From an uncultured Rhodocyclaceae bacterium (lineage in GTDB: Bacteria > Pseudomonadota > Gammaproteobacteria > Burkholderiales > Rhodocyclaceae), in NCBI GenBank assembly GCA_903930805.1, contig CAIYZZ010000530.1, positions 1 to 20,837 of the forward strand: a DNA stretch of 20,837 nucleotides. The letters run 5' to 3'. Shown here one piece after another: positions 1,553 to 19,314 of the stretch. Position numbers and translations under genes: made by a program. Every line of letters starts with the position of its first letter. The stretch's first letter is position 1. A model generated the notes under the pieces. That model made no database searches, was not told the DNA's origin, and saw only the letters and a list, made by a program, of their open reading frames with translations.

Positions 1553-1578
1553 GCCGTCCCGCCAGCGCCGACTTTTCA
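1553..1578 (+). repeat. Dispersed 24-26-bp repeat, copy A (intergenic)
   Basis: A 26-bp sequence with core CCGCCAGCGCCGAC, identical over all 26 bases to the copy at 19289-19314. It lies in the 190-bp gap between the divergent phd-vapC and folD units. Four further copies with 0-2 mismatches in the 24-bp core lie inside genes at 5838, 8685, 10487 and 17577. Confidence 0.85.
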
Positions 1579-1587
1579 CATCCGTTA

Positions 1588-1616
1588 TGGACGCAACCGA
1601 AGCGAATCGGGATAAT
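1588..1616 (+). promoter_or_regulatory. folD: Candidate promoter of the folD operon
   Basis: TGGACG (1588-1593, 4/6) and GATAAT (1611-1616, 5/6) are spaced by 17 bp, with transcription expected near 1623. The -10 sits within a small GGGAT-A-ATCCC dyad (1609-1619). Confidence 0.45.
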
Positions 1617-1643
1617 CCCACTTTTTAAGAAAAGAGCTTCCGC

Positions 1644-2498
1644 ATGACTGCACAAATCATCGACGGCAAGGCGCTGGCCGACACCGTCCGCGCCGAACTG
1701 GCCGAAAAAGCCGCCGCACTCAAGGCCACACAGGGCATCACGCCCTGTCTCGCCGTGATCCTCGTTGGTGAAGATCCGGCCTCCAGCGTCTATGTACGCA
1801 ACAAGGTATCTGCTTGCGAAAAGGCCGGTTTCCGCTCGATCAGGGAAGTTTACCCTGCCAATGTCGAACCGATGGTGGTGTTGGGGAAGATTGCCGAGTT
1901 GAACGCCGACACGGATGTGCATGGCATTCTCGTGCAACTGCCGCTGCCCAAACAATTCGACACCGAAGCCGTGCTCGAAGCCATCGTGCCGGAAAAGGAT
2001 GTCGATGGCTTCCATGCCGAGAACGTCGGTGCGCTGATGCAGGGCAATCCGCGCTTCATTCCCTGCACGCCCTACGGTGTGATGAAGATGCTGGAGTCGG
2101 CGAACATACCCCTGAAGGGCGCTGAGGCTGTTATCGTCGGCCGCAGCAATATCGTCGGCAAGCCGATGGCCATGCTGCTGCTGGCCAAGAGTTGCACCGT
2201 GACGGTCTGCCACTCGCAGTCGAAGGATCTGGCTTTTCACACTAGGCGAGCTGACATTTTGGTCGCTGCTGTGGGTCGTGCCAAGATGATCACCGGCGAC
2301 ATGATCAAACCCGGCGCAACGGTAATCGACGTCGGCATCAACCGTACCGCTGACGGCAAACTCTGCGGCGACGTGGATTTCGAGTCGGCCAAGGAAGTCG
2401 CCGGTGCCATCACCCCGGTACCGGGCGGTGTCGGCCCGATGACAATCACCATGCTGCTCGCCAATACCCTTGAAGCGGCGGAAAGGACGTTGAAATGA
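1644..2498 (+). CDS. folD: Bifunctional methylenetetrahydrofolate dehydrogenase/cyclohydrolase
   Basis: FolD interconverts 5,10-methylene-THF, 5,10-methenyl-THF and 10-formyl-THF in the cytoplasm using NADP, supplying one-carbon units for purine and formyl-Met synthesis. The 284-aa length is normal. Residues 50-54 (YVRNK) carry the catalytic Tyr and Lys, ILVQLPLP and DVDGFH form the folate site, [12 protein letters not shown] (about 163-174) is the nucleotide-binding motif, and [10 protein letters not shown] closes the protein. The ATG has a weak AAGAG ribosome-binding site. The last four bases overlap the start of purE (ATGA), so it heads a coupled operon whose second gene is also in purine synthesis. 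Confidence 0.97.
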
Positions 2499-2992
2499 GC
2501 AAATTGCATCCCATCGTCGGCATTGTCATGGGTTCGGATTCGGATTGGCCGGTCATGAAGGTCTGTGCCGAAACGCTGAAACAATTTGGCATTCCTCATG
2601 AGTCCAAAGTGCTGTCGGCCCATCGCACGCCCGATGCGGCACTCGACTACGCCGCCACGGCGCAGAGCCGTGGCATGAAAGTATTGATCGGTGCGGCCGG
2701 CGGCGCGGCGCATCTGGCGGGTGTTCTGGCCGCCAAATCCGAGCTGCCCGTGCTGGCAGTACCGATGCCCTCCAAGCATCTCCAAGGCCTCGATTCACTG
2801 CTGGCCATGGTGCAGATGCCTGGCGGTATCCCGGTTGCCACCTTCGCGATTGGCGAGGCGGGCGCGATCAACGCCGCACTGTTCGCTGTCGCCATGCTGG
2901 CCCTCAACGATGCAACTCTGGCGAAGAAGCTGACAGATTTCCGCGTAGGTCAGACAGAAAAAGTGCTGTCCAAAACTCTGCCCGAGGTTTGA
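2495..2992 (+). CDS. purE: N5-carboxyaminoimidazole ribonucleotide mutase
   Basis: Class I PurE moves the carboxyl group of N5-CAIR to give CAIR in de novo purine synthesis and normally works after PurK, which is not in this window. The 165-aa protein has the family motifs GSDSD (13-17), SAHRTP (41-46, with the catalytic His43) and GAAGGAAHL (66-74), plus [13 protein letters not shown] and [13 protein letters not shown]. It forms an octamer in known examples. It overlaps folD by four bases and shares one base with the next start (TGATG), so the three genes are probably co-translated. Confidence 0.97.
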
Positions 2993-3957
2993 TGGCAGAG
3001 CAGATCGAGCGTGCAGCCGGCCTGCTGCGCGAGGGCGAACTGGTCGCCTTTCCGACTGAGACGGTTTACGGCCTCGGTGCAGATGCGCGCAATCCGGCCG
3101 CCGTAGCGAAAATCTTCGCCGCCAAGGGGCGTCCGGCCGACCATCCGCTTATCGTCCATCTACCCGCTGCCGGGCATCTGGACCGCTGGGCGCGCGACAT
3201 TCCCGAATCTGCGCATGCGCTGGCCAAAGCGTTCTGGCCCGGCCCGCTGACGCTGATTCTCAAGCGCCAGCCGGACGTAACCGATGCCATCACCGGCGGC
3301 CAAGACACCGTTGGCCTGCGCGTGCCGAACCACCCGTTGGCACTCGAGCTACTCCACAGCTTCGATAGCGGCATCGCCGCCCCTTCGGCCAATCGCTTCG
3401 GCCGCATCAGCCCGACCACCGCAGCGCATGTGCGCGACGACTTGGGCGATGCGGTTTCACTCATTCTCGACGGCGGTCCCTGTACGGTAGGTATCGAATC
3501 CACCATTGTCGACCTCAGCCGGCCACGCACTACCATCCTGCGTCCCGGCATGCTCTCGGCTATCGATATCGGCCGCGTGCTGGGGCGGGTTCCCGACGTG
3601 GCGGGCGATCTCCAATCCCCCCGCGTCTCGGGATCGCTGGCAGCCCACTACGCGCCGCGTACCCCGCTGGTGCTGATGCCGGACGATAGCCTGTCCATCG
3701 AACTGCGCAACGCTATTGTTGCCCAGGAGCGCGTGGCCGTGCTGGCGACCTTCCCGGCACCCTTCGAGATGCCGCAGGTGTTCTGGCACATCGCCCCCGC
3801 CGATCCGGCCGGTTTTGCCCACGATCTCTACGCCAACCTGCGCCGGCTCGATGCGCTCGGCTGTGACCGTATCGTCGTGCAGAAACCCACAGGACAAGCC
3901 TGGCTGGCCGTACTCGACCGCCTCAAGCGTGCGGCAGCTGGATCGGGGTCAAGATAG
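2992..3957 (+). CDS. tsaC: L-threonylcarbamoyladenylate synthase, Sua5 long form
   Basis: It makes threonylcarbamoyl-AMP from threonine, bicarbonate and ATP, the first step of the t6A37 modification of ANN-decoding tRNAs. The N-terminal YrdC-like domain (about residues 1-200) shows FPTETVYGLG (20-29), KGRPADHPL (45-53), SANRFGRISPTTAAHV and GIESTIVDLS. A C-terminal Sua5 domain (about 215-315) follows a linker containing SGSLAAHYAPRTPL, the flexible segment that gates the active site in Sua5 proteins. The 321-aa length fits Sua5 and not the roughly 190-aa short TsaC. I chose ATG 2992, preceded by a GAGG motif, over a TTG one codon earlier. It is translationally coupled to purE. Confidence 0.93.
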   Translation: MAEQIERAAGLLREGELVAFPTETVYGLGADARNPAAVAKIFAAKGRPADHPLIVHLPAAGHLDRWARDIPESAHALAKAFWPGPLTLILKRQPDVTDAITGGQDTVGLRVPNHPLALELLHSFDSGIAAPSANRFGRISPTTAAHVRDDLGDAVSLILDGGPCTVGIESTIVDLSRPRTTILRPGMLSAIDIGRVLGRVPDVAGDLQSPRVSGSLAAHYAPRTPLVLMPDDSLSIELRNAIVAQERVAVLATFPAPFEMPQVFWHIAPADPAGFAHDLYANLRRLDALGCDRIVVQKPTGQAWLAVLDRLKRAAAGSGSR

Positions 3958-4001
3958 GCTAAGATTCGTCTCGACAAACCCGACACGGAGGAAATATCAC
4001 G

Positions 4002-4619
4002 ATGGCAACGATTCACAAGGAAGTCGCCGCACAGCAACCGCTCGCCACCCGCAAGGCACCGCAGGGCACCGGTTTCAGCCAGCCCAGCACCTTCACGCTG
4101 GTGCGCGCCGAATCTCCCGCGCTCTGTGTAATGACCGACCTCAAGCAGGTTTCGGCCGCCACCATCGGCCCCGATGCCACGCTGGCACAGGCCAACCAGA
4201 CGATGATTTCGCGCGGTGTGCGCCTCCTGCTGGTGGTCAATCGCGACGACGAAGTGCTGGGGCTCATCACTTCGCGCGACACCCAGGGTGAAAAGCCGAT
4301 TCAGTTGATTCAGGAGCGTGGCGGCAAGTTCACCGACCTGCTGGTCAGCGACCTGATGTGCCCGCGCGAACGAATCGATCTGATGGATACCACCGACGTG
4401 CTGCGCGCTACAGTCGGCGACATCGTCGCCACGCTCAAGCACCTGAAGCGCCAGCATGCGATGGTCGGCGAACACGACCCGGTCACCGGCCAGACGCGCA
4501 TTCGCGGCATCTTCTCGGCCACCCAGATCGGGCGCCAGTTGGGCGCTGCCGTGCAGACCTTCGAAGTCAGCACGACCTTTTCCGAGATCGAAGGCCTGCT
4601 CGCTCAGGACAACGCCTGA
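4002..4619 (+). CDS. CBS-domain protein, function unknown
   Basis: A 205-residue soluble protein with a good GGAGG ribosome-binding site. After a variable N-terminus (1-40) there are two CBS-like modules. The first is at about 45-100 (TIGPDATLAQANQTMISRGVRLLLVVNRDDEVLGLITSRD) and the second at about 115-190 (VSDLMCPRERIDLM to IRGIFSATQIGRQLG). Such pairs usually bind adenine nucleotides or S-adenosylmethionine and regulate a partner; no catalytic domain is attached. It lies 44 bp after the Sua5 gene and may be the operon's last gene. Its stop codon abuts the stop codon of convergent cbbO with no bases between. What it regulates is not evident. Confidence 0.75.
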   Translation: MATIHKEVAAQQPLATRKAPQGTGFSQPSTFTLVRAESPALCVMTDLKQVSAATIGPDATLAQANQTMISRGVRLLLVVNRDDEVLGLITSRDTQGEKPIQLIQERGGKFTDLLVSDLMCPRERIDLMDTTDVLRATVGDIVATLKHLKRQHAMVGEHDPVTGQTRIRGIFSATQIGRQLGAAVQTFEVSTTFSEIEGLLAQDNA

Positions 4620-6680
4620 TCAGCCGGTCAGCCTGCGATAGATGTCCGCTACCTTGAGCGGCAGTTTTTTCACGTCATCCAATACCGTGTAGCTTGCCGG
4701 TCCGACCATGTGGCGCAGGTAATCCGCGCCATGGCGGTCGATGGTGATGCAGTAGCTTTTGATACCCTGCTCGCGCGCTTCCTGCAGCGCACGGCGTGTG
4801 TCCTCGATGCCATACTGGCCGCGATATTCGTCGCCGAAGTCGTCGGGGCGTCCGTCCGAGAGCGTTACCAGCAGCTTGTGGCGCGCCGGCTGTTTGGCGA
4901 GCAGATGGGTGAGGTGACGGATCGCCACGCCCATGCGCGTGTAGTCTTTGGCCTCAATGGCACCGATGCGCTCACGCACGGCATCGTCGTAGCGGTCGGC
5001 GAATGACTTGATGCGGTAAATGTCGCAACGCGTACGCGTCCAGCCGGAAAAACCATAGATGGCATAACTGTCGCCGAGCTTCTCGAGCGCCTCGCAGAGC
5101 ATCACCAGCGTTTCGCGTTCGGCATCGTTGATCCAGCCCTTGGTCGAGCCGCTCATGTCGACCATGAACATGGCGGCCAGGCCGCGCTCGTTGCGCATGC
5201 GGCGGCAGAACAGGCGCGGGGAAGGCTCGGCACCGCTCTTGCGATCATTTACCGCCTCGACCAGCGCATCGAGGTCGATTTCCTCACCCTCCGGCTGCCG
5301 GCCAAGGATGCGATCCTCGCCGCGCACCGCCTCGAAACGCCGCTTCAGTTGCTGGATGAGCGGTGCGTAACGGCGCTTGACGTCGGCGACAAACTGGCCA
5401 TCGCCCGCCGGCACGTCACTCACATAGACATGGCACCATTGGCGCCGGTAGGCGTTGCGGTGGTAGTCCCATTCGTCGTAACGGAAGTCGGCGTCACGCT
5501 CGCTCACCGCTTCGGGCAGGCCAAGATCCTTGCCGGTTGGCTGCCACGAGCCATCACCGGCCGCCGTCAGCGCTTCGGGCGGCAACTCGCCCAGGTCTTG
5601 CACCAGCGATTGTGCGGCAGCACGGGCATCCGGCGGCAAAGTGACGACATCGCCGTCGAGACGAATTTCCATCTCGCCACTATCTATTTTCAGCTCGGTG
5701 GTAATCGCGCCGGGGGCCGCCAGTTTCTTGCCTACCACACCTTTCAGCGCCCCCAGCGCCTTGCGCAGGATCTCGGTTTCGCGCGTGATGCGCTCGGCGC
5801 GCACGCGGCCAGCCACCGCCGGATCAAGCTGGCCGATAAAAGTCGGCGCTGGCGGGACGGCTCCCTGTGCCATGTAATGCACCAGCCAGTCGAGCGTGAC
5901 GCGAATGTCAGCTTCTGGTGCCTGCAAAGCGGGCAAGGCCGCCGCCAGTTCGGCGGGCCAGGCACCACAGAAGGAGGTGAGCATTGCCCCGAGGCCCGGC
6001 AGGTCGCGGGCAATGCAGGCTGATAGCCGCACCGCTTCCAGCGCCGCCAACCAGTGCAAGGCCGCATCGCGATCAGACCAGGCGGTGAGCGCGCCTTCGA
6101 GGTCGACAGTGAAAGTGCCATAGCGCGTCTGCGCCCAAAGCTGCACGGCCAGCACCCTGTAGAGCGCACGGTTGTCATCGACGGCGGCAAAATGCGCAAT
6201 GCGCTCGGGCAGAAAAATCGTCTCCGTATCCGTCCAGGGGTAAGTACCTGCTTTCAGCGCCAGGGGCCGCTCGGACAGCCCCTGCACAAAGCGACTCAGC
6301 CGCTGCTCGACTTCGCTAAAACGTGCAAACAGGCGTCCCTCGCGCAGGGCAACAAAGCCATCGATGTCGCGCAGACGTTCCACCGCCGGGCGCATACCTT
6401 CCTTGTCGAAGGTGTCGAGGCTGGCGAGCGCCCAGGCTTCGAAGTCAGGCATACCAATGCGCGCCAGTGCCTCGGGCGCCATCAAGGCAATCATGTGGCC
6501 AACGCCGGCATTCGTCTGCGCCGCCACCGCCACCCAGTGCAGCACCACATCCTGCTGGCTGCGCGGCAGCGCCTCGAGCGCAGCCGCGATGCGACCGGTC
6601 GAGCGGTGTGAAATCGAGGCGAACAGCAGCGTATCGAGCCTAGCCTCGATCTCGTGCTCGAAGAGGCGGCGCTCGGTCAC
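4620..6680 (-). CDS. cbbO: CbbO-type RuBisCO activase subunit, VWA domain
   Basis: The 686-residue protein has a C-terminal von Willebrand A domain with the MIDAS motif DMSGS (D508), followed by NDAERETLVMLCEALEKLGD and the later MIDAS-type segment VTLSDGRPDDFGDEY. The N-terminal two thirds are helical and poorly conserved, as in CbbO/NorD proteins. CbbO is the adaptor that links the CbbQ AAA+ hexamer to inhibited RuBisCO so that tight-binding sugar phosphates are released. It starts at GTG 6678-6680, three bases after the cbbQ stop, with a weak ribosome-binding site, so translation is probably coupled. NorD, acting on nitric oxide reductase, is the main alternative; no nor genes are seen here. 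A dispersed repeat copy encodes residues 274-281. Confidence 0.8.
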   Translation of the reverse strand: MTERRLFEHEIEARLDTLLFASISHRSTGRIAAALEALPRSQQDVVLHWVAVAAQTNAGVGHMIALMAPEALARIGMPDFEAWALASLDTFDKEGMRPAVERLRDIDGFVALREGRLFARFSEVEQRLSRFVQGLSERPLALKAGTYPWTDTETIFLPERIAHFAAVDDNRALYRVLAVQLWAQTRYGTFTVDLEGALTAWSDRDAALHWLAALEAVRLSACIARDLPGLGAMLTSFCGAWPAELAAALPALQAPEADIRVTLDWLVHYMAQGAVPPAPTFIGQLDPAVAGRVRAERITRETEILRKALGALKGVVGKKLAAPGAITTELKIDSGEMEIRLDGDVVTLPPDARAAAQSLVQDLGELPPEALTAAGDGSWQPTGKDLGLPEAVSERDADFRYDEWDYHRNAYRRQWCHVYVSDVPAGDGQFVADVKRRYAPLIQQLKRRFEAVRGEDRILGRQPEGEEIDLDALVEAVNDRKSGAEPSPRLFCRRMRNERGLAAMFMVDMSGSTKGWINDAERETLVMLCEALEKLGDSYAIYGFSGWTRTRCDIYRIKSFADRYDDAVRERIGAIEAKDYTRMGVAIRHLTHLLAKQPARHKLLVTLSDGRPDDFGDEYRGQYGIEDTRRALQEAREQGIKSYCITIDRHGADYLRHMVGPASYTVLDDVKKLPLKVADIYRRLTG
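5838..5861 (-). repeat. Dispersed 24-bp repeat, copy E (inside cbbO)
   Basis: On the minus strand this matches the 24-bp core of the intergenic copies exactly. It is read in frame by cbbO as residues 274-281 (AVPPAPTF), the same octapeptide that copy C gives in the ThDP enzyme at 7653-9278. Confidence 0.85.
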
Positions 6681-6683
6681 TGC

Positions 6684-7505
6684 CTAGAACACAGCTCGCA
6701 CTAAATCGTCAAGCGTCTGCGTCATCTCCGGGTCGTCAGTCAGCGCCCGCGCCACTGCCGCTGTGCTGGCTTCCACCGCTGTCATGCCGGCACCGATCAG
6801 TTGTGCGGCATGCACCAGCAGGCGTGTGCTGGCACCCTCGTCGAGGCCAGCCCCCTTGAGATTGCGCGTCAACTCGCCCAGCTTCACAAGTTGCTTAGCC
6901 CGCTCGAGGTCGATGCCGCCTTCGGTGGCGACAATCTGCGCCTCGACTGCGGCGTGCGGATAGTCGAATTCCAGTGCGATAAAACGTTGTCGCGTGCTCG
7001 GCTTGATCTCTTTCAGAACGCTCTGGTAACCCGGGTTGTAGGAGATCACCAGCATGAAGTCGGGCGGCGCGGGAATCAGCTCGCCGCGCTTGTCGACCGC
7101 CAGGGCGCGGCGCGTGTCAGCGAGTGGATGGATGACAACGGTGGTGTCCTTGCGTGCCTCGACAATTTCGTCGAGGTAACAGATCGCGCCGGCGCGCACG
7201 GCAGCCGTCAACGGGCCATCGAGCCAGACCGTGTCGTCGCCGACGATGAGATAGCGGCCGACCAGATCGGCAGTGGTCAGATCGTCATGGCAGGCGACCG
7301 TGACGAGCGGGCGCTTGAGCTTCCACGCCATGTATTCGACAAAGCGCGTCTTGCCACAACCGGTCGGGCCTTTCAGCAATACAGGCAGGCGCCGGCTGGC
7401 GGCAGCGGCGAAGATCGCCAGTTCGTTTCCCACCGGCTGATAGTAGGGTTCGGTCGTGAGCGTTTCGAGCTCAGGGGTAATGCTGCGGAAAGCGTTCAGG
7501 GTCAT
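6684..7505 (-). CDS. cbbQ: CbbQ-type MoxR AAA+ ATPase, RuBisCO activase motor
   Basis: A 273-aa MoxR-family AAA+ protein with Walker A GPTGCGKT (46-53), Walker B ICYLDE (108-113), a sensor-1 region ([12 protein letters not shown]) and an arginine-finger region ([11 protein letters not shown]). The length and the C-terminal helical part fit the CbbQ/NirQ/NorQ group. Known members form hexamers that use ATP, with CbbO, to remodel RuBisCO. It lies directly before cbbO in the same unit. The ribosome-binding site is poor. NorQ cannot be excluded from sequence alone, but the autotrophic sulfur-oxidiser context favours CbbQ. No RuBisCO gene lies within the window. Confidence 0.85.
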
Positions 7506-7538
7506 CGGTCGGACAATCGGTTTTCAAGGGAGGAGCGA

Positions 7539-7567
7539 AGTCTGAAACAGGCCATCAGAAGTGTCAA
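7539..7567 (-). promoter_or_regulatory. cbbQ: Candidate cbbQO promoter
   Basis: In the 147-bp gap between divergent cbbQ and the ThDP gene, the minus strand has a consensus TTGACA (7562-7567), 17 bp before a weak CAGACT (7539-7544, 3/6). The leader would be about 30 nt. On the plus strand a TATCCT (7583-7588) could serve the ThDP gene but has no matching -35. Confidence 0.3.
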
Positions 7568-7652
7568 TTGAGCAGATTGGGGTATCCTGCCGCCCCACCG
7601 CGCAACCCCGTCGGAGTGTGCTCAAATCCGGCCTTTCATCGAATCCAGTCTC

Positions 7653-9278
7653 ATGCAAATAACCGTCGCCGCACTGATCGTCCGCTTCATGGAGCGCCTC
7701 GGCATCCGCCACATCTATGGCATGCCGGGTTCGCACATCCTGCCGGTCTATGATCGTCTCTACGATTCGACGATTAAAACCGTGCTGGTCAAGCATGAGC
7801 AGGGTGCGGCCTTCATGGCAGGGGGCGAGGCGCGCGCAGCGGGCGGCATCGGTGCCTGCATTGCCACGGCCGGCCCAGGTGCAACCAACCTGATCACCGG
7901 CATCGCCAACGCCTACGCTGACAAGCTACCCATCCTGATCATCACCGGCGAGACATCGACCTGCATCTTCGGCAAAGGCGGCCTGCAGGAAAGCTCGGGG
8001 GAAGGTGGCACGATCGATCAGGGCAGCTTGTTCAAGGGCATCACGCGTTATCACAAGATGGTCGAGCGCACCGACTACCTGCTTCAGCTGCTGCGGCAGA
8101 CGGCGAAGATTCTGTTGTCCCCCAATCCGGGGCCGGTACTGCTCAGCTTTCCCTACAACATCCAGAAAGAACTCGTCGCGGAAAACCTGCTCGACGACAT
8201 TCGTTTCGCACCCGAACCACAACCAATTTGCAATCGCTTCGCCGCGACGGCCGACATGGCACGCATGATCACGCTGGCCAAACATCCGGTCATCGTGGCA
8301 GGGTATGGCTGCTTCCTTGCCGGCGCGCAGGCGGCCCTGCAAGCCTTGAGCGCAGAGCGCCACATCCCCGTCACCACCACGCTCAAGGGCAAGGGACTAG
8401 TCGAGGAGGGCAACCCGCGCTCGCTCGGCTGCCTCGGCGTCACCTCCAACGGCGACGCCTACCGCTACATCGTCGAACATGCCGATCTGGTAATTTTTCT
8501 CGGCGCCGGCTTCAATGAACGCACCAGCTATCTCTGGGACGCCCGACTGCTGGCCGGCAAGCAGATCATCCAGGTCGACCATGACATCGAGCAACTCGAA
8601 AAAGTGTTCAAGGCGGATCTGGCGATTCACGGCGACATCCGCGCGGTGCTGGAGGATTTGCTGGTGAATATCGACACCAATGCCGCCGTCCCGCCAGCAC
8701 CGACTTTCTCGCCCGCTGCGGTGCAACCGCATTTCGCCGTCATCGCACATTTATTCGACCGCCTCATCGCATGCCTGCCGCAGGGCGCGCAGATTTTCGA
8801 CGACAACATCATTCTCGCGCAAAGCTACTTCACGGCCTCGCCGCGCCACCGCTATTACCCGAACTCGGGCATCTCCGCGCTCGGCCATGCCATCCCGGCT
8901 GCCATCGGCGCCCGCTGTGCCAGCGCCATGCCAACCTTCGCCCTCCTTGGCGACGGTGGTTTCCAGATGTGCGGCATGGAACTGATGACTGCCGTGAATT
9001 ACCGGATTCCGCTCAATGTGGTGATGATCAACAACGGCACGCTGGGACTGATCCGCAAGAACCAGTTTCAGCTTTACCACGAGCGTTACATCGACTGCGA
9101 TTTCGTCAATCCGGACTACGCCCTGCTCGCGCAATCCTTCGGTATCGCCCACTGGCGCGTCGAAACAACAGCAGACGTTGACACCGTCTGCGCGCGTGCC
9201 GACCTGTCCGGCGGCATCAATCTCATCGAAATTCTCTGGGACAAGCATGTCTTCCCTGCCTACCAAGCCAACCGCTGA
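7653..9278 (+). CDS. ThDP-dependent enzyme, acetolactate-synthase-like
   Basis: A 541-aa member of the decarboxylase superfamily, with PYR, central and PP domains in the normal order. GMPGSHILPVYDRL and VKHEQGAAFMA carry the catalytic Glu49 that activates the ThDP aminopyrimidine. CIATAGPGATNLITG is typical of the acetolactate synthase branch. The Mg-ThDP motif runs from GDGGF (433-437) to NN (460-461), and TLGLIRKNQFQLYHERY resembles the C-terminal substrate region of IlvB. The reaction is therefore likely a decarboxylating C-C ligation or lyase step on a 2-oxo acid. It lacks an adjacent ilvN or ilvC and heads a cassette with a glycosyltransferase-like and an adenylating enzyme, so I do not call it ilvB. 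Residues 345-352, at the expected central/PP linker, come from a dispersed repeat copy. Confidence 0.88.
   Translation: MQITVAALIVRFMERLGIRHIYGMPGSHILPVYDRLYDSTIKTVLVKHEQGAAFMAGGEARAAGGIGACIATAGPGATNLITGIANAYADKLPILIITGETSTCIFGKGGLQESSGEGGTIDQGSLFKGITRYHKMVERTDYLLQLLRQTAKILLSPNPGPVLLSFPYNIQKELVAENLLDDIRFAPEPQPICNRFAATADMARMITLAKHPVIVAGYGCFLAGAQAALQALSAERHIPVTTTLKGKGLVEEGNPRSLGCLGVTSNGDAYRYIVEHADLVIFLGAGFNERTSYLWDARLLAGKQIIQVDHDIEQLEKVFKADLAIHGDIRAVLEDLLVNIDTNAAVPPAPTFSPAAVQPHFAVIAHLFDRLIACLPQGAQIFDDNIILAQSYFTASPRHRYYPNSGISALGHAIPAAIGARCASAMPTFALLGDGGFQMCGMELMTAVNYRIPLNVVMINNGTLGLIRKNQFQLYHERYIDCDFVNPDYALLAQSFGIAHWRVETTADVDTVCARADLSGGINLIEILWDKHVFPAYQANR
8685..8708 (+). repeat. Dispersed 24-bp repeat, copy C (inside the ThDP gene)
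   Basis: 22 of 24 bases match the intergenic core; both differences are transitions (G to A and T to C). Read in frame as AVPPAPTF, residues 345-352 of the ThDP enzyme. Confidence 0.8.
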
Positions 9279-10836
9279 GACGCCTGCGGGCGCAAACCAT
9301 CGCTTCATCATCGTCATTCCGGTCGCCGACCGGCCACGCCATATCCAGGCCTGTCTCGATAGCCTGCGCAAGCTGCTACTGCGCTATCCCTACGCCGGCG
9401 AGATTGCTGTCCTCATCGCCGACGACAGCGCCGACGCCGCCCACATTGCGACGAATCGGGCCATCGCCGCCCGATATAGCGCCGCCAACCTTAACGTCAT
9501 CCACTTCGGTCCGGACGAACAGTTTGCCCTGATCCAACCACTGTGGGAAACGCTGTCCAACGTCGTCGGCAATACGCCGCGCAAAAATTCGGCAAATTTT
9601 GGACATAAGGGCCAGGGCGCAATGCGCAACATTGCCTATCTGAAAGTCGCCGCGTTACTGAAAGATATGCCCGGCGAGAATGTACTGATCTGGTCGCTCG
9701 ACAGCGACCAGGAATTTTGCGTCAAGGTCACCACCCCCGAGGGCGACAAGGATGTTTATGGCGTTGATTTCTTCAATTCTCTCGACGCCATTTTTTCCCG
9801 CACCGATGCACTGGTGCTGACTGGCAAGGTGGTCGGCGACCCGCCGGTTTCGCCCGCCGTCATGACCGGCAACTTTCTCGCGGATGTGATCGGCTTTCTG
9901 CAACAGATGACCGCCACCGCGCCTGCGAGCGCCTGCAGCCACCATCGGGCAGACACTCGGCACACCGGTGACGCGGCCTATCACGACATGGCCGACCTGT
10001 TCGGCTTCCAGACCGCCGCAGAGGCCTATCGCTTTCGCTGTCCACTGACCGGCCAGCACACCGCGTCAGACTGCTTCGCGCATTTCGCTGCCCGCCTCAA
10101 TAGTTTCTTCTACGGCGAGCATCCGACGCGGGTCTCCTATTACGAAAACGCGGAGCTTTTCAGCACAGTTCAGGCGGCACGCACGGTGTATGCGGGCAAT
10201 TACGTCTTCCGTCCTGAAGCACTCAAGTACTTCATCCCGTTTGCCAATCTGCGGCTGCGCATGTCCGGGCCGACACTCGGCCGCATGATGCGTACCGAAC
10301 TCGGGACGCGCTTCGTTTCGGCCAACCTGCCGATGCTGCACAAGCGCACGCTGGCAAGCGGCGGACAAGCAGAATTCCGTCCCGGCATCGAGACGCAAAC
10401 AGAATGCATCGACATGAGTGGCGAATTCGAGCGCCAGTTCTACGGCGATGTGATGCTGTTTTCCATCGAACGACTCAATGAATCACGCCGTCCCGCCAGC
10501 ACCGATTTTTCTGAAATATTGGACAACGTGCGTAGCGCGATGCTTGAAAAATACAACACTCGGCAACAGCTCATTCTCGACAGGCTGAGTGAATTGGAAA
10601 CACTGTTACACGCGCCAGCTGCATGGTGGGACCATGCAGCTGTCCATGCCGACGCATTCGAAAACTTCGCTAGCTTCGTCGCCAATATCAGGCACAACTT
10701 CGGCGAGAACACAGCGGGGCATACCCGTATCAACGCCGCCGGAAACTGGCAAAAGTGGCGCGCCGATTTGCTGGCGGCCATCGAGTGTTACCCTGCAGAT
10801 CGCGCTGCGTGGGAGGCAGTTCTTTGCGCGCACTAA
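9247..10836 (+). CDS. GT-A fold glycosyltransferase-like protein
   Basis: A 529-residue protein. The N-terminal segment FIIVIPVADRPRHIQACLDSL (about 20-40) is the first Rossmann-like unit of a GT-A (GT2-like) fold. LIWSLDSDQEF places a DxD metal motif at D152/D154. The region between carries GHKGQGAMRNIAYLK, and the C-terminal third (about 370-529) is mostly helical without a recognised domain. No membrane segments are seen. The ATG at 9247 lies 32 bases inside the end of the ThDP gene and has a partial GGGA ribosome-binding site; upstream in-frame starts would lengthen the overlap and look non-homologous. Its stop overlaps the next start. The donor, acceptor and product are unknown; glycosyl transfer is inferred from fold motifs. 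Confidence 0.72.
   Translation: MSSLPTKPTAETPAGANHRFIIVIPVADRPRHIQACLDSLRKLLLRYPYAGEIAVLIADDSADAAHIATNRAIAARYSAANLNVIHFGPDEQFALIQPLWETLSNVVGNTPRKNSANFGHKGQGAMRNIAYLKVAALLKDMPGENVLIWSLDSDQEFCVKVTTPEGDKDVYGVDFFNSLDAIFSRTDALVLTGKVVGDPPVSPAVMTGNFLADVIGFLQQMTATAPASACSHHRADTRHTGDAAYHDMADLFGFQTAAEAYRFRCPLTGQHTASDCFAHFAARLNSFFYGEHPTRVSYYENAELFSTVQAARTVYAGNYVFRPEALKYFIPFANLRLRMSGPTLGRMMRTELGTRFVSANLPMLHKRTLASGGQAEFRPGIETQTECIDMSGEFERQFYGDVMLFSIERLNESRRPASTDFSEILDNVRSAMLEKYNTRQQLILDRLSELETLLHAPAAWWDHAAVHADAFENFASFVANIRHNFGENTAGHTRINAAGNWQKWRADLLAAIECYPADRAAWEAVLCAH
10487..10510 (+). repeat. Dispersed 24-bp repeat, copy D (inside the glycosyltransferase-like gene)
   Basis: 22 of 24 bases match the intergenic core, with two transition differences. 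It is read in a different frame from copies C and E, giving RPASTDF in the C-terminal helical region of the protein. Confidence 0.75.
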
Positions 10837-13042: not shown

Positions 13043-13092
13043 GCGTGAGTAACCTCGTAACGACTATGGTTTGACCATTTGAAAATAGAACA

Positions 13093-13118
13093 GGCCGGAA
13101 GCCCTAGGGCTTCCGGCC
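13093..13118 (-). terminator. Rho-independent terminator of aprBA
   Basis: A perfect 26-bp palindrome (arms GGCCGGAAGCCCT and its complement, with CTAG at the centre) lies 32 bp after the aprA stop. On the minus strand it is followed by the T-rich TGTTCTATTTTC. Whether read-through supplies the YkgJ-type gene cannot be told. Confidence 0.85.
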
Positions 13119-13149
13119 AGCATGTTACAGCTTAAGCAAACAGGCGTGC

Positions 13150-15177
13150 TTAGTGCGGCGCAGCAGCCTTGAACAGCTTCGACTTGTCGATCAGGTCGAT
13201 GTGGGCGCGCTTGAAGCAGGTCCACTTCTTGGACTTCTTGTCGTAGATCGAGTTAACGAAGCACTTCCAGTTTTCCTCATCGACGAAGTTCTTGTCGGTG
13301 CGATAGTAGAAGCCGGGGTAACGGCTCTCTTCGCGGAACTGAATGTGTTTCATGTGGGCTTCGGCCGTCAGGATGCGATGGTAGTTTTCCCAGGCGCGCA
13401 GCAGTTCGTGCAGATCCTTCGCACGCATCTTCTGGGCATCTTCCTTCAGCATTTCGAGCTTCTCTTCCGCAACCGCCAACATCTTGTCGTTAGTGGTGTA
13501 GTAGGTGGCCACACCGGCAACGTACTCGTCCATGATCTTCTGCAAACGCATCTGCAGCATCTTGGGCGTGATGTAGTTGGGGTTAACGTCGATAGCGGTC
13601 GAGTAGTCCTTGAACTCGAGGAAGGTACGTACCGGCTTCCAGATCGCATCGGCGATCTGTTCGACGGTTTCGTCAAGCTCGGGCTTCAGGTCGGCATTGT
13701 CCATGCAGTACTTGACCATGGCCTTGGCAGCCAGACGACCTTCGGCATGCGAACCGGATGAGAACTTGTGACCAGAAGCACCCACGCCGTCGCCGGCAGT
13801 GAACAGACCCTTGACGGTGGTCATGGAACGATAACCCCAGTTCCAGCCGGAAGGCAGGTGGGCAGGCACGCCAGCCTCTGTCTCGGTGGTCGGAGCGCCG
13901 ACGTCGGTCGGGCCAGAAACCCAGATACCGCAGCAACCTGAGTGCGAACCGAGCAGGTAGGGCTCGGTCGGCATCAGCTCGGACATCTTTTTCTCGGGCT
14001 CGATGTTCTCGCCAACCCAGACGCCGCACTGACCGATACACATGTCAAGGAAATCTTCCCAGGCTTCGGCTTCGAGGTGCTTCACTTCCTTCGGCGACAG
14101 GGTCTCGCGCAGTTTGGCCAGCGCGGTGACGGTATCCATCCAGATCGGGCCGCGACCTTCCTTCATCTCTTTGAGCATCAGGTGGTTACGCAGGCAAGAA
14201 GCGGGAACGGCAGCCTGACCATAGGGCGGGTAGTCGTTCAGCATGTCCTTGTTCTTGGTCATGTAGTCTTCGCCGTAGGCATTCGCTGCACGGGCCTTGA
14301 ACAGCAGGAACCAGGCGCCCACCGGGCCGTAACCGTCCTTGAAGCGGGCTGGCACGAAACGGTTTTCCATGAGCGTCAGCTCGGCGCCGGCTTCCGCCGC
14401 CATCGAGTAGGTGGAACCGGCGTTCCACACCGGGTACCAGGCGCGGCCCTGACCTTCGCCGACGGAGCGGGGACGGAACAGGTTGACGCAACCACCGGCA
14501 GCCAGCATGATGGCCTTGGCCTTGTAGATGTAGATCTTGTTCTCGCGCACCGAGAAACCGGCAGCGCCGGCGATGCGGGTCGGGTCGTTCTTGTCGTTGA
14601 TCAGATGGACAACGAAAACCCGCTCCTGGATGCGATCCAGGCCCAGCGCCTTCTTGGCGGCTTCGGCAACAATCCACTTGTAGGATTCGCCGTTGATCAT
14701 GATCTGCCACTTGCCCGAACGCACCGGCTGACCGCCGTCCTTCAGGGAGGGGATGCCTTCCTTGATAGCGTCAGCACCGTCGTGACGCACACCAGAGGCG
14801 TCGGTTTTCCAAATGGGCAGGCCCCACTCTTCAAACAGATGCACGGAGTCGTCGACGTTACGGCCGCAGTCGTAGGTCAGGTCGTCGCGGGTGATACCCA
14901 TCAGGTCATTGGAGACCATTCGGGCGTAGTCGGCAGGATCCTGTTTGTCGCCGATGTAGGTGTTGATCGCGGACAGACCCATCGCCACGGCGCCTGAGCG
15001 ATCCAGCGCAGCCTTGTCAACCAACTTGATCTTGAGTTCCTTGCCGGTCTCGGCCTTGAGTGCCTCGGCCCAGCGCATGATCTCGTATGCTGTACCGCAG
15101 CAGGCCATGCCGCCGCCGATCAGCAGAACGTCCAGTTCTTCCTGGACTACTTCCGGTTTGTCAAATGTACCAGCCAT
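13150..15177 (-). CDS. aprA: Adenylylsulfate (APS) reductase alpha subunit
   Basis: AprA is the FAD subunit that interconverts APS with sulfite plus AMP. In a sulfur oxidiser it runs toward APS, in the cytoplasm, passing electrons to AprB. The 675-aa sequence begins with the FAD dinucleotide fold (LLIGGGMACCGTAYE, about 18-32) and has RSGAVAMGLSAINTYIGD (about 60-77), NRFVPARFKDGYGPVGAW and GSHSGCCGIWVSGP. The His of the last motif is near residue 411 and is probably the conserved active-site His. The GAGGA ribosome-binding site is 7 bases upstream of the ATG, 23 bp after aprB. Neither aprM nor qmoABC, the usual membrane electron partners, is in the window. Confidence 0.97.
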   Translation of the reverse strand: MAGTFDKPEVVQEELDVLLIGGGMACCGTAYEIMRWAEALKAETGKELKIKLVDKAALDRSGAVAMGLSAINTYIGDKQDPADYARMVSNDLMGITRDDLTYDCGRNVDDSVHLFEEWGLPIWKTDASGVRHDGADAIKEGIPSLKDGGQPVRSGKWQIMINGESYKWIVAEAAKKALGLDRIQERVFVVHLINDKNDPTRIAGAAGFSVRENKIYIYKAKAIMLAAGGCVNLFRPRSVGEGQGRAWYPVWNAGSTYSMAAEAGAELTLMENRFVPARFKDGYGPVGAWFLLFKARAANAYGEDYMTKNKDMLNDYPPYGQAAVPASCLRNHLMLKEMKEGRGPIWMDTVTALAKLRETLSPKEVKHLEAEAWEDFLDMCIGQCGVWVGENIEPEKKMSELMPTEPYLLGSHSGCCGIWVSGPTDVGAPTTETEAGVPAHLPSGWNWGYRSMTTVKGLFTAGDGVGASGHKFSSGSHAEGRLAAKAMVKYCMDNADLKPELDETVEQIADAIWKPVRTFLEFKDYSTAIDVNPNYITPKMLQMRLQKIMDEYVAGVATYYTTNDKMLAVAEEKLEMLKEDAQKMRAKDLHELLRAWENYHRILTAEAHMKHIQFREESRYPGFYYRTDKNFVDEENWKCFVNSIYDKKSKKWTCFKRAHIDLIDKSKLFKAAAPH

Positions 15178-15200
15178 TTTTTATTCCTCGATTCGTTGAA

Positions 15201-15674
15201 TTACTTGCGGATCAGTTCGGCGGGATTGCCAGCACGGAAACCACCCATGACTTCCTTGGTGAAGACGCCGTCGAGGGCTAGGTCAGCAATCTTTGGCATC
15301 GGCTTGCCACCAAACGGGTCGATGGAACCCTCTGCAGTGGTGCGGATCGGGAACTTGAAACGCTTGATGTTGCCGTTGCGGAACTTGATGGTCCACATGA
15401 TGGAATCGGAACCGCGCAGGGGCTGCACGGAACCACCCAGCGGTACGACGTCGGCGTAGTGCCGGCACTCGATGGCGCCCTGCGGGCAAATCTTGACGCA
15501 GGAATAGCACTCCCAGCACTGCTCGGGCTCCTGGTTGAACGCCTTCATGGCGTGGCCGGTATCGGAAGCGTCCTTATCCAGTTTCATCAGGTCATGCGGG
15601 CAGATGTACATGCAGGCGGTCTTGTCTTGACCCTTGCAGCCATCGCATTTCTCGGTACGAACAAAGGTAGGCAT
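15201..15674 (-). CDS. aprB: APS reductase beta subunit, 2x[4Fe-4S]
   Basis: A 157-aa iron-sulfur subunit. Eight cysteines bind two [4Fe-4S] clusters: C10, C13, C21 and C25, and C53, C56, C59 and C63 in CWECYSCVKIC. Trp54 sits in the second cluster loop, where a Trp is known to tune cluster potential in characterised AprB. The C-terminal part (about 90-157) is the tail that wraps AprA in known structures. It is the first gene of aprBA, with an AAGGAGAG ribosome-binding site. It lies opposite sat across a 379-bp regulatory region. Confidence 0.97.
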   Translation of the reverse strand: MPTFVRTEKCDGCKGQDKTACMYICPHDLMKLDKDASDTGHAMKAFNQEPEQCWECYSCVKICPQGAIECRHYADVVPLGGSVQPLRGSDSIMWTIKFRNGNIKRFKFPIRTTAEGSIDPFGGKPMPKIADLALDGVFTKEVMGGFRAGNPAELIRK

Positions 15675-15811
15675 TACTTACTCTCCTTGCTAGCTGACAA
15701 TCCGCTGTTATTTTGATCAGCGGTCCATTTGATTTCCATGCCCTACCTTGGCCGGTGGCGTATCGCGATTTTGCTTCCGGCGGAGCACGGGTGTTTCAAA
15801 TTCCTTATGAA

Positions 15812-15838
15812 GCGCCGTGAGGCTATCACCTCACGCGC
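15812..15838. repeat. Hairpin in the aprB leader region
   Basis: A 10-bp stem with one bulged base (GCG plus CGTGAGG pairing with CCTCACGCGC) and the loop CTATCA. It lies about 140 bp upstream of aprB and has no T-run, so it is more likely a leader structure or protein site than a terminator. Confidence 0.45.
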
Positions 15839-15860
15839 AGCAGGATAATCCCGATTTTTG

Positions 15861-15898
15861 ATTGGCGAATAAGCCGCGCCAATTGATTTCGCGAATCA
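15861..15898. promoter_or_regulatory. Two adjoining dyads, possible operators
   Basis: ATTGGCG-N9-CGCCAAT (15861-15883, perfect 7-bp arms) directly abuts TGATT-N5-AATCA (15884-15898, perfect 5-bp arms), and the Fnr-type box begins one base later. Such spacing suits dimeric regulators binding side by side. The regulators are not identified. Confidence 0.45.
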
Positions 15899-15914
15899 TT
15901 TGATCTAGATCAAA
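15899..15914. promoter_or_regulatory. Fnr/Anr/Dnr-type binding site
   Basis: The 16-bp perfect palindrome TTTGATCTAGATCAAA contains an exact match to the Fnr-family consensus TTGAT-N4-ATCAA. It sits between divergent aprB and sat, 140 bp before the sat start and 225 bp before the aprB start. It implies control of sulfur oxidation by oxygen or NO through a Crp/Fnr-family protein. Which promoter it serves is unclear because neither predicted -10 lies at the standard -41.5 offset. Confidence 0.75.
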
Positions 15915-15982
15915 CAGCCCGTTTTTCTGCACGCTGTCGTCGTCGTAACCAATTAGTCATTGACACATTCCAACAAATATAT

Positions 15983-16010
15983 TTGATAGGGACGCCAATG
16001 GGCATATTGT
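15983..16010 (+). promoter_or_regulatory. sat: Candidate sat promoter
   Basis: TTGATA (15983-15988, 5/6) and TATTGT (16005-16010, 4/6) are spaced by 16 bp, giving a leader of about 37 nt. A perfect TTGACA at 15960-15965 is an alternative -35, but its -10 at 17 bp (TTGATA) is weak. Confidence 0.35.
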
Positions 16011-16053
16011 ATTTTGCTGGCTCCAAAATCAGACATTTACGGGAGGATCATCA

Positions 16054-17232
16054 GTGATAAAGCCACACGGTTCCGATCAACTCAACCCGCTGTTCGTGTA
16101 TGACGATGCTCAACATCGCGCACTGGCACACGAAGCAGAGTCGCTGCCTTCGATGATGCTCTCCTCGGCCGCCGCTGCCAACGCGGTGATGATGGGCTCG
16201 GGTTACTTCAACCCGCTGACCGGCTATATGAATCTGGCCGACGCCCTCAGCGTGGCAGAACACATGAAGACCACCAGCGGCCTCTTCTGGCCAGTACCCG
16301 TCATGAATCTCACCAGCGACATCAGCGCCATCAAGGGCCATAAACGCATTGCGCTGCGCGACCCCAATGTCGAGGGGAACCCGGTCCTGGCCGTCATGGA
16401 CGTGCAAGCGATCGAGGAAGTCAGCGAGGACCAGATGCGTCTCATGACCGAGAAGGTCTATCGAACGACGGATCCTGTACATCCCGGCGTGGCAGCATTC
16501 AATTCCGCCGGTCGCTACGCTGTTTCCGGCTCGATCAAGGTGTTGAGCTTCAGCTATTTCCAGAGCGAATTTCCGGATACCTTTCGCACCGCCGTCGAGA
16601 TCCGCAACGAAATCGCCGAGCGCGGATGGAAAAAGGTGGTCGCGTTCCAAACCCGTAACCCGATGCACCGCGCGCACGAAGAACTCTGTCACATGGCCAT
16701 GGATCGTTTGGGTGCCGATGGTCTCGTCATTCACATGTTGCTCGGCAAATTGAAGGAAGGGGATATCCCGGCGCCGGTGCGCGATGCGTGCATCCGCAAG
16801 ATGGTTGAGCTGTACTTCAAACCCAACAGCGCGATGGTGACCGGTTATGGCTTCGACATGCTCTATGCCGGACCGCGCGAGGCAGTTCTGCATGCCGTCT
16901 TCCGCCAGAACATGGGTGCCACGCACTTCATCATTGGCCGCGACCACGCGGGCGTGGGTGACTATTACGGCCCCTTCGACGCTCAGGCCATTTTCGACGA
17001 TGTACCCAAGGGCGCGCTACTGATCGAAATGTTCATGGCAGACAATACCGCCTGGTCAAAGAAACTCGGTAAGGTGGTGATGATGCGCGAGGCGCCCAAT
17101 CACACCAAGGAAGACTTCATCACGCTGTCCGGCACCAAGGTACGCGAAATGCTCGGTCGTGGCGAAGCGCCTCCACCGGAGTTTTCTCGTCCTGAGGTAG
17201 CAAAAATTCTCTCGGCGTACTACCAGAGCTAA
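16054..17232 (+). CDS. sat: Dissimilatory sulfate adenylyltransferase (ATP sulfurylase)
   Basis: Sat would here run in reverse, turning APS and pyrophosphate into ATP and sulfate, the substrate-level phosphorylation step after AprBA. The 392-aa homo-oligomeric type has an N-terminal PUA-like region (1-160), then QTRNPMHRAHE (199-209, the ATP-binding motif), GRDHAGVG (295-302) and LSGTKVREML near the end. It has no fused APS kinase domain. The start is GTG 16054, preceded 7 bases earlier by a strong GGGAGG; the next in-frame ATG would delete conserved sequence. It is divergent from aprBA and probably co-regulated through the shared intergenic region. Confidence 0.96.
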   Translation: MIKPHGSDQLNPLFVYDDAQHRALAHEAESLPSMMLSSAAAANAVMMGSGYFNPLTGYMNLADALSVAEHMKTTSGLFWPVPVMNLTSDISAIKGHKRIALRDPNVEGNPVLAVMDVQAIEEVSEDQMRLMTEKVYRTTDPVHPGVAAFNSAGRYAVSGSIKVLSFSYFQSEFPDTFRTAVEIRNEIAERGWKKVVAFQTRNPMHRAHEELCHMAMDRLGADGLVIHMLLGKLKEGDIPAPVRDACIRKMVELYFKPNSAMVTGYGFDMLYAGPREAVLHAVFRQNMGATHFIIGRDHAGVGDYYGPFDAQAIFDDVPKGALLIEMFMADNTAWSKKLGKVVMMREAPNHTKEDFITLSGTKVREMLGRGEAPPPEFSRPEVAKILSAYYQS

Positions 17233-17251
17233 AACAAGGCATGATGGGCAA

Positions 17252-17281
17252 GCTGACTGCGGTGTTCCCACCGCGGTCAGC
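17252..17281. terminator. Hairpin between convergent sat and bepA
   Basis: A 13-bp stem (GCTGACTGCGGTG pairing with CACCGCGGTCAGC, one G-U pair) and a TTCC loop lie 19 bp after the sat stop and 9 bp after the bepA stop. The stem is strong but no adjacent T-run is present on either strand, so it may end transcripts only partly, or act in both directions. Confidence 0.55.
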
Positions 17282-17290
17282 CGCGCCAGC

Positions 17291-18727
17291 CTAGCGCCGC
17301 TCTCGCTTCATCTCTTCCATCTTGCGCTGCTTCAATTCGTGCAGGCGCGCATCCACCTGCGACAACTCGTAAAAATCACCATCGCCGGCCTTGCGCGCCA
17401 GTTCGAGTTGCTCAATGGCGCCGTCAAGCTGTCCATCAGCCAGGTAAGACTCGGCCTGGGCACGGTGCTGCTGCATATTTTTTCCCATCATGGCGTAGGT
17501 TTTCGCCTGCAGGGCATACATTCGTGCATCGCCGGGCGTGAGCTGCAATTCCTTCTGCGTCAGCACCAACGCATCTGCCGTCTCGCCAGCGCCGACTTTT
17601 GCCTCGATCAATGCGTAGGTGATTGACCGCACATGCGGATAGCGTTGCGCCGCCGCACGCAAAAGCTGCAAGGCACCCACCACATCTTTCCGCTTCAGCC
17701 GCAATTGCGCCGCCAGCGTTTCAAGCAGTGGTGACTCGAGTTTCAAACGGCGCAGGGTCGCGAGCTCTGTCTCGGCTGCAGTAAGCTTGTTGTCGCGCAA
17801 CAGTGCATGAGCATAGCCAAAACGCACATCGGTTTCGCGCGCATATTTCCCAGACGTCAACTGTGCTGAGAAATCTGCCACCGCATCACCCGGTGTGCCA
17901 TCGTAAGCCTTCAGCTTGGCGCGCACCAAGCCAAATTCCACAGTGTCTGGCACTTGGCGATAAGCCCGCAGGGCGATGCGGTTTTCCATGTCGGTGATAC
18001 GCTCGGTCGTCAGGGGGTGGGTGCGCAAATAACCTGGCGCATTGTTTTCATACAGTCGGCCAAATTGCAGCATGCGCTCGAAGAAGCTCGCCATGCCGCG
18101 GGTGTCGTAACCGGACTCATCCATCAGGTCGAGCCCCAGACGGTCGGCCTCGCGCTCAAAATCACGCGAATAGTTCAACTGATTCTGGATGACCGCCGCC
18201 TGGCCGGCCATCGCCGCACCGATGGCCACGTCCGGGTTACTGCGCGCCGCCAGCACCGCCACGGCCAGCGACAGCAGCGATGCCATCTGCGCTTGGCTCT
18301 GTTTCCCGAACAGGCGCACCAGATGGCTCTGCGTGACGTGAGAGATTTCATGCGCCAGCACGCCGGCAAGTTCCGATTCAGAACGCGCCGACAGAATCAG
18401 TCCGGAATGCACACCAATGTAACCGCCGGGCAAGGCGAAGGCATTCAGCATGGAATCCCGCACAACAAAAAACTCGAAGGGCTGGCGCGCGCCCTCGGCA
18501 TGACCAGCCAAGCGCAGCCCCAACTGGTTGATGTAGCCCGCCACCTCGGGATCGTCGAGATATGCCGGATCACGGCGGATCTCCAGCATGATCCGCTCGC
18601 CCAGACGCCGCTCAGCGTGCTGCGAGAGCCCGCTACGCTCCAATTCACCCAGATCGGGCAAACCCTCGGCACGCGCCAGCGTACCCGGCAACAGCAGCAT
18701 CACGATCAGCCACAGATATGCTCTCAT
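17291..18727 (-). CDS. bepA: BepA/YfgC-like periplasmic M48 metalloprotease with TPR domain
   Basis: The 478-aa length is close to BepA (about 487). A signal peptide is visible ([20 protein letters not shown], 1-20), then an M48 Zn-protease domain with HEISH at 126-130 and the third ligand region FEREADRLG near 190-197. TPR-like helices follow from about 300 to 465 (for example [35 protein letters not shown] as positions). BepA helps assemble or degrade outer-membrane proteins such as LptD with BamA. The start Met gives the signal peptide directly but has only a weak ribosome-binding site. It is divergent from moaC (54 bp). Residues 377-384 (KVGAGETA) are encoded by a dispersed repeat copy. 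Confidence 0.88.
17577..17600 (+). repeat. Dispersed 24-bp repeat, copy F (inside bepA, antisense to the gene)
   Basis: 23 of 24 bases match the intergenic core (one C to T). The gene runs on the other strand, so it reads the complement as KVGAGETA in a loop between TPR helices. Confidence 0.8.
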
Positions 18728-18781
18728 GGCGATATGATACCGGCTCTGACTACCGCCCCCGCACGCGACAAGTGCAAGAAA

Positions 18782-19285
18782 ATGTCACAAGACAAATCCG
18801 CCACTTCAGCGCTCACCCATTTCGATGCCGCCGGCCAAGCCCACATGGTCGATGTTGGCGCCAAGTCCGAAACAGCACGGTTGGCGCGCGCCACTGGTCG
18901 CATTCGCATGCAGCCTGCCACCTTTGAACTGATCCATTCCGGTTCGGCAAAGAAAGGCGATGTACTCGGCATCGCCCGCATCGCCGCCATTCAGTCCGCC
19001 AAACGCACCAGCGACCTGATCCCGCTCTGCCATCCGATCGCACTCACGCGCGTCGCCGTCGAGTTCGATCTCGACGCGGCGGCATCCACAATCACCTGCA
19101 CCACCACTACCGAAACTTTCGGTCGCACCGGCGTCGAAATGGAAGCGCTGACCGCCTGCACCATCGGTTTGCTGACCATCTACGATATGGTTAAAGCAGT
19201 CGATCGCGGCATGGTCATCGAGGCGCTGCAACTGTTGGAAAAAGCCGGGGGGAAGTCTGGACACTGGGTGGCCAAACGCTGCTAG
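18782..19285 (+). CDS. moaC: Cyclic pyranopterin monophosphate synthase
   Basis: MoaC converts the MoaA product 3',8-cyclo-GTP into cyclic pyranopterin monophosphate in molybdenum cofactor synthesis. The 167-aa protein has [20 protein letters not shown] (57-76), LIPLCHPI (79-86), [13 protein letters not shown] (112-124) and the active-site pair D134/K137 in YDMVK, as in characterised MoaC. The frame is open far upstream, but ATG 18782 gives the family-length protein; the upstream part is antisense to bepA. A TATGAT (18733-18738) in the 54-bp divergent gap may be its -10, though the -35 is poor. No other moa genes are adjacent. Confidence 0.95.
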
Positions 19286-19288
19286 CAC

Positions 19289-19314
19289 GCCGTCCCGCCA
19301 GCGCCGACTTTTCA
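19289..19314 (+). repeat. Dispersed 24-26-bp repeat, copy B (intergenic)
   Basis: Identical over 26 bases to the copy at 1553-1578. It fills almost the whole 29-bp gap between the convergent moaC and the dehydratase gene, ending right at the latter's stop codon (19315-19317). Confidence 0.85.

Follow-up and report, generated by a model that had tools for sequence, protein, structure and literature searches.

A dispersed 24–25 bp repeat of Rhodocyclaceae genomes as a probable uptake sequence for natural transformation

The DNA analyzed here is a stretch of 20,837 nucleotides from an uncultured Rhodocyclaceae bacterium (assembly GCA_903930805.1, contig CAIYZZ010000530.1, hereafter the window) which contains six copies of a short dispersed repeat. 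Judging from its behavior in this genome and its relatives, the repeat is likely to be a genomic uptake sequence for natural transformation, with a probability of roughly 0.8. According to a 2025 paper (PMC12616744), uptake sequences are known from the Neisseriaceae and Pasteurellaceae only. The repeat would quite probably represent a third, independently evolved self-recognition code of transformation, composed of one contiguous word of 24–25 bp, housed in an environmental family and possibly read by a receptor other than ComP. Within the open-licence literature of PubMed Central, whose scope excludes preprints and most subscription journals, no paper was found for four pieces of the motif or for 'DNA uptake sequence' in combination with Rhodocyclaceae.

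Results

A first-pass annotation of the window had reported six copies differing from each other by transitions only. Positions and mismatches to the 24-mer (0, 0, 2, 2, 1 and 0 in coordinate order, all transitions) proved exact, and no copy at all appeared when the window was shuffled 100 times with dinucleotides preserved. A genome-wide count, which had been recommended, yielded a number far above chance: in the fragmented assembly of 3.25 Mb, 588 copies with up to three mismatches were found (284 forward and 304 reverse, approximately one per 5.5 kb), while the reversed motif used as control was absent from both strands.

Among 150 genomes of the same family, 15 including the window's own contain 176–730 copies. 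These carriers belong to six genera (four of four sampled genomes of g1, three of three each of g2, g46 and g64, single genomes of g9 and g38), every sampled genome of which is a carrier. The genomes G045, G023 and G056 follow with 28, 24 and 16 copies, the remaining family members possess 0–8, and the reversed control matched once each in five of the 150 genomes. Since all counts were scored with the g1 consensus, other variants of the motif are undercounted. A second set comprised 20 genomes that were sampled by way of 20 out of the 80 loci matching a thiamine pyrophosphate (TPP) enzyme of the window. Three of these genomes have 412, 478 and 460 copies (two Rhodocyclaceae metagenome-assembled genomes (MAGs) and one unclassified proteobacterial MAG), and 17 have 0–4 copies, three Rhodocyclaceae MAGs among them. 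In an order-level sample of 399 genomes, none outside the family had more than five copies, 25 had 1–5, and the control occurred once in eight genomes. A phylum sample of 398 genomes revealed, apart from the window's genus and a single genome of the order, only four single matches with three mismatches, the control being found once in six genomes. Thus, in the samples taken, high copy number is restricted to part of one family. A plasmid collection of 72,556 records gave only partial, marginal matches in four records. By an exact search with the 24-mer, 23 stretches of a viral collection were detected, each with one to six copies at up to four mismatches; a stretch of 8.6 kb from IMG/VR (L309) bears six such copies and is perhaps host DNA or the edge of a provirus.

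The motif can be written as AAAAGTCGGCGCTGGCGGGACGGC with a purine added at its 3′ end. It was defined by a profile of 83 sites with at most five mismatches, taken from 21 stretches of the window's genome (the window and 20 contigs picked for exact copies), and consists of a sharp block of 24 bp, the purine and little beyond. Two blocks, AAAGTCGGCG and ACGGC, are especially conserved. The two intergenic copies of the window had been described as identical over 26 bp. This agreement is exact, but the profile supports 24 bp plus a purine, with weak preference at the two bases beyond the 24-mer. The numbers of mismatches are bimodal, dropping to three sites at six mismatches and climbing again at seven to eight, where the reversed control also begins; in G126 this control gave one match at four mismatches. 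In the nine genomes that offered 15 sites or more, the information content of the motif amounts to 28–36 bits.

Copies of the motif arise in place by substitution, not by insertion. Orthologs were surveyed with the motif masked, starting from 247 copies with up to four mismatches; 12 genomes were drawn on, 10 of which contributed copies. Counting reciprocal pairs twice, 173 ortholog pairs spanned a copy, and 159 of them had no indel inside it. The orthologs of these gapless pairs have 0–2 mismatches in 84, 3–8 in 39 and nine or more in 36. Because the requirement for a spanning alignment disfavors insertions, the flanks were additionally anchored separately. Anchoring within 12 bp was possible for 102 of 426 pairs; exactly 24 bp lay between the anchors in 78 of them, and a clean absence of exactly 24 bp, i.e. 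zero bases between the anchors, was encountered in none of the 102. The mean identity of orthologs inside the motif (0.738) exceeds that of the adjacent 12 bp on either side (0.66 and 0.63). Turnover is detectable even within one genus: of 27 copies of G080 that could be aligned in G019, 16 have at most four mismatches there and ten have 5–8, whereas the reverse comparison of 20 G019 copies gave 16 and two, respectively.

The first-pass annotation had proposed to compare the genic copies of the window with the orthologs of relatives, and they turned out not to be simply ancestral in all of them. In up to nine relatives the orthologous segments range from perfect to unrecognizable, e.g. at 17577 and 8685. 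The site at 17577 varies between 0 and 12 mismatches in gapless alignments, the one at 5838 has been kept with 0–2 mismatches in seven relatives, and the copy at 10487 lies in a stretch of variable length with small indels. The intergenic DNA around the copies at 1553 and 19289 is too divergent for a decision, though a copy is present in two relatives at the place of the latter.

Placement was analyzed with 176 copies (at most four mismatches) on 14 stretches, nine of them from the window's own genome and eight of these picked for exact copies, with genes called by our own simple script based on open reading frames (ORFs) and codon usage. Copies favor intergenic DNA and convergent gene ends. 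While 83–95% of each stretch is coding and about 12% of the bases are non-coding, 120 copies are genic, 47 intergenic and nine lie across gene borders. Of 54 non-genic copies that could be classified, 21 lie in convergent gaps, which make up 16% of the intergenic bases on three stretches. Genic copies prefer certain reading frames, two of the six phase/strand classes accounting for 75 of the 120. Moreover, the copies are more evenly spaced than random ones. On three long stretches with 62, 37 and 28 copies, the coefficient of variation of the spacing was 0.73, 0.56 and 0.64 as opposed to approximately 0.96 for random positions (p = 0.0035, 0 of 2000 and p = 0.0125). The bias of five out of six copies to one strand, which had been noted in the window, disappears on a larger scale, as three long stretches of relatives have 31 of 64, 22 of 45 and 21 of 35 copies in plus orientation. 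Closely spaced inverted pairs, which are frequent in known uptake systems, were not found here; they are a secondary trait and not required for function.

Different genera carry different dialects of the motif. This follows from profiles made per genome, for which the reversed controls gave 0–1 sites and g45, g9 and g38 were represented by one genome each. G000 and G126 (g1) have the consensus AAAAGTCGGCGCTGGCGGGACGGC. In G019 and G080, also of g1, the first base is relaxed and AC is added past the end; a separate G019 dialect, suspected from GGCGGCT variants, was discarded since the profiles supported a loosened center only. The motif ends with ACGGCGa in G069 (g2), and G008 (g9) has T in 57% of its sites at the position right after TCGG. 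G045 (g45) possesses AAAAGTCGACGCTgg with a loose center and ACG, and for G148 (g64) CTGGtgagAcGgc was obtained from only 15 sites. In unbiased counts of 10-mers, a piece of the motif ranks first in G045, G148, G069, G008 and G038. Searched for in all 150 genomes of the family, the core AAAGTCGACGCTGG gave 139 occurrences in G045, 18 in G117, eight in G016 and 0–3 elsewhere; AAAGTCGGTGCTGG was counted 348 times in G008, 43 times in G000, 23 times in G038 and no more than 20 times in any other genome. Whole genomes have thus been, or are being, swept by single-base changes, as would be expected if the reader of the motif changed its preference. No obvious dialect was seen in 100 kb of the non-carrier G112.

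Two further observations concern individual genomes of the family. At G016:C162:5056-5090, a pair of dialect cores is oriented head to head at a distance of 21 bp, the sole tight inverted pair noticed among the places listed. In the non-carrier G023 (123 kb analyzed, e.g. L294-L298), a different word, a palindrome around GCTTCTATAGAAG, is over-represented; TTCTATAGAA was counted eight times, both strands of the palindrome included, against an expectation of 0.03.

Copies outside the carriers are clustered. In 33 genomes listed with two or more copies, a set that excludes G045 and the carriers, 48 of 129 copies lie within 15 kb of another one on the same contig, while 2000 random placements gave a mean of 4.4 and a maximum of 15. 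A 10-kb stretch of G203, which belongs to another family (L308, G203:C3:24000-34000), contains three copies. Besides short matches to the motif itself, parts of 300–730 bp are 79–85% identical to six carriers, with partial coverage, and no match was found in three members of G203's own family. On sequence grounds, this one island examined would look like DNA donated by carriers, which does not imply a particular route of transfer.

Within the window, a copy without mismatches is located between genes at 1553..1576 (minus strand), upstream of a folD-type gene at 1644. A second perfect copy (5838..5861, plus strand) lies inside a VWA-domain gene (4620–6680, minus strand), to which we assigned the label norD-like because it adjoins a gene for a CbbQ/NorQ-type ATPase. 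The copy at 8685..8708 (minus strand, two mismatches) falls into the gene of the TPP enzyme (7653–9278, plus strand), in the stretch that separates two domains. This enzyme is acetolactate-synthase-like, and its five best named matches are Rhodocyclaceae MAGs with 63–74% identity. Another copy with two mismatches (10487..10510, minus strand) is inside an ORF at 9178–10836 (plus strand), whose start is uncertain and for which no family scored above the cut-off. The copy at 17577..17600 (minus strand, one mismatch) belongs to the gene of a BepA-like M48 peptidase (17291–18727, minus strand). The last, perfect copy (19289..19312, minus strand) is situated 2 bp past the 3′ end of a nucleotide-sugar dehydratase-type gene (19315–20796, minus strand). 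Besides the VWA protein and the TPP enzyme, the products encoded in the window comprise FolD-, PurE-, Sua5- and CbbQ/NorQ-type proteins, AprA and the beta subunit of adenylylsulfate reductase, and sulfur- and nitrogen-cycle genes are present in its genome. Near the first copy, a gene for a PIN-domain protein (828–1460, minus strand) with an apparent small gene upstream looks like a toxin-antitoxin arrangement.

Discussion

Biased uptake by a receptor that reads the motif explains the data best, since the hallmarks that could be tested on the motif were found, frequent inverted pairs excepted. The word of 24–25 bp would be recognized by a predicted DNA receptor on the cell surface during natural transformation, most likely a minor pilin of type IV pili. 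DNA of kin, which has the word every few kb, would be imported and recombined more readily than foreign DNA. As better-matching fragments would enter more often, recombination would slowly turn near-matches into matches, above all at sites where a conversion is permissive, such as linkers, intergenic gaps and convergent gene ends. Copies would spread by point mutation and allele replacement rather than by transposition, and a shift in the receptor's preference would let the whole genome drift to a new dialect. We infer all three components of this model, the existence of a receptor, its pilin nature and the bias of uptake. The motif is best read as working like an uptake sequence, and it is not filed here as a proven member of the class.

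Several observations weigh against this interpretation. Indels inside the copy do occur in 14 of the 173 spanning pairs. The 15 anchored pairs without the motif span from −5 to 36 bp, exactly 24 bp being found in only three, and two are at −5, i.e. they lack 29 bp corresponding to the word and five bases. Mean ortholog identity inside the motif equals that of the wider flanks (0.74 and 0.72). On the three long stretches, no pair of copies is less than 150 bp apart, and a search for partners within 60 bp of 289 copies in eight genomes gave 68 partial inverted and 78 partial direct matches compared to 43 for the reversed control. An information content of about 36 bits exceeds what a receptor is expected to need, a puzzle of over-strong consensus also remarked for the uptake signal sequence (USS) in PMC1626085. 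Finally, neither ComEC nor the ComP_DUS family separates carriers from other genomes. ComEC was detected in all 24 genomes tested, equally in non-carriers, and the ComP_DUS family in 138 of the 150 family genomes, carriers and non-carriers alike; it had no match in the carriers G045 and G138. A minor-pilin set that seemed to be carrier-specific, and which we presume to be MSHA-like (a name that no search result gave), had to be rejected because the non-carrier G112 encodes it as well.

Prepilin-type genes are present in all five genomes surveyed (four carriers and one non-carrier; 30 of 53 matched loci were read). G045, a carrier with its own dialect that is listed as 98% complete, has, apart from the missing ComP_DUS match, two prepilin-type matches among those listed. 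Either this scarcity of pilins narrows the search for the receptor, or G045 has recently lost the system, or the assembly misses it.

An unlikely alternative is that the repeat is the binding site of an abundant protein organizing the chromosome or acting in recombination (a nucleoid ruler, a Chi-like or a repair signal), selected for about every 4–5 kb. Sites would then be made by point mutation and dialects by changes of the protein, and even spacing, origin by substitution and dialects also fit this explanation. By inspection, the motif also resembles three GNYGGC-like sub-sites. However, many copies are within coding sequence, and the consensus is far stronger than that of usual protein sites, an argument made for USS in PMC1626085. 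Moreover, strand polarity was absent from three contiguous stretches of 200–241 kb (one 241-kb contig and, for each of two chromosomes, its initial 200 kb). In G019, 30 kb sampled from two secondary contigs, which are 149 and 103 kb long and of lower G+C, contained no copy at up to six mismatches, while the main contig has 33 copies at up to four mismatches in 239 kb, a rate that predicts approximately four per 30 kb.

The first-pass annotation had listed an uptake signal and a short replicating or targeted element among its readings. The former is now favored, whereas the latter is contradicted because copies are formed by substitution in place. Short replicating elements such as the Rickettsia palindromic element or the repetitive extragenic palindromic (REP) sequences insert in genes and gaps, and the fixed length of the word and its near-identical copies (at least about 100 exact ones in the window's own genome) would suit such an element. 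Considering the gapless orthologs, the lack of any anchored pair devoid of exactly 24 bp and the many half-formed copies, it is nevertheless very improbable; the motif does not fold beyond shuffled sequence either (z = 0.29 and 0.26). An RNA element or terminator hairpin was rejected on the same folding result, together with the lack of close inverted pairs and of any Rfam match in the window at the gathering score. An artefact of composition or codon usage (favored peptide AVPPAPTF / KVGAGGT) or of assembly contamination could account for the 75 of 120 genic copies falling into two of six phase/strand classes, but can practically be dismissed as 47 of 176 copies are intergenic, all six classes are occupied, the reversed control gave zero and three genera have the motif in genomes assembled as a single contig (G080, G069 and G148).

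If the repeat is an uptake sequence, sex by transformation would have been pervasive in the past of these lineages and would probably still be going on, and the repeat would single out transformation as one of the forces acting on these bacteria. The beginnings, the spread and the dialect changes of such systems could be traced on a third origin, and the co-evolution of receptor and motif on several genera whose dialects differ. The motif would also serve as a tracer for DNA exported from carriers.

Among known interspersed repeats, palindromic and REP-like elements are likewise short, dispersed and found within genes, but they insert while the Rhodocyclaceae copies form in place. The Neisseriaceae are, as the Rhodocyclaceae, a beta-proteobacterial family in the older sense. 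Their DNA uptake sequence (DUS) is recognized by the minor pilin ComP and resembles the motif in its hundreds to thousands of copies, many of them intragenic, and in clade-specific dialects that are one or a few bases apart (PMC3630211). It differs by its length of up to approximately 13 nt and its unrelated sequence, and its receptor is known, whereas that of the Rhodocyclaceae motif is only predicted. DUS often form inverted pairs tied to terminators, which were not seen here, and according to the same source (PMC3630211) a single dialect lacks a stop codon, all others having one in one frame, while inspection of the Rhodocyclaceae consensus revealed none in all six. The USS of the Pasteurellaceae is similar in other respects. 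In PMC1626085, a gap test shows that USS arise by substitution, and for USS and DUS a distribution somewhat more regular than chance, a preference for non-coding DNA and an anomalously strong consensus are reported, all of which recur in the motif. Conserved bases of the USS also cover some two turns of the helix or more; a core of 9 nt is accompanied by weak AT-rich regions, as opposed to a contiguous GC-rich word. AAGTGCGGT of the USS and AAAGTCGGCG of the motif have only a vague resemblance, and the families are different. The USS is known from host-associated species. Its length, its freedom from stop codons in six frames and its home in the Rhodocyclaceae set the motif apart from both DUS and USS.

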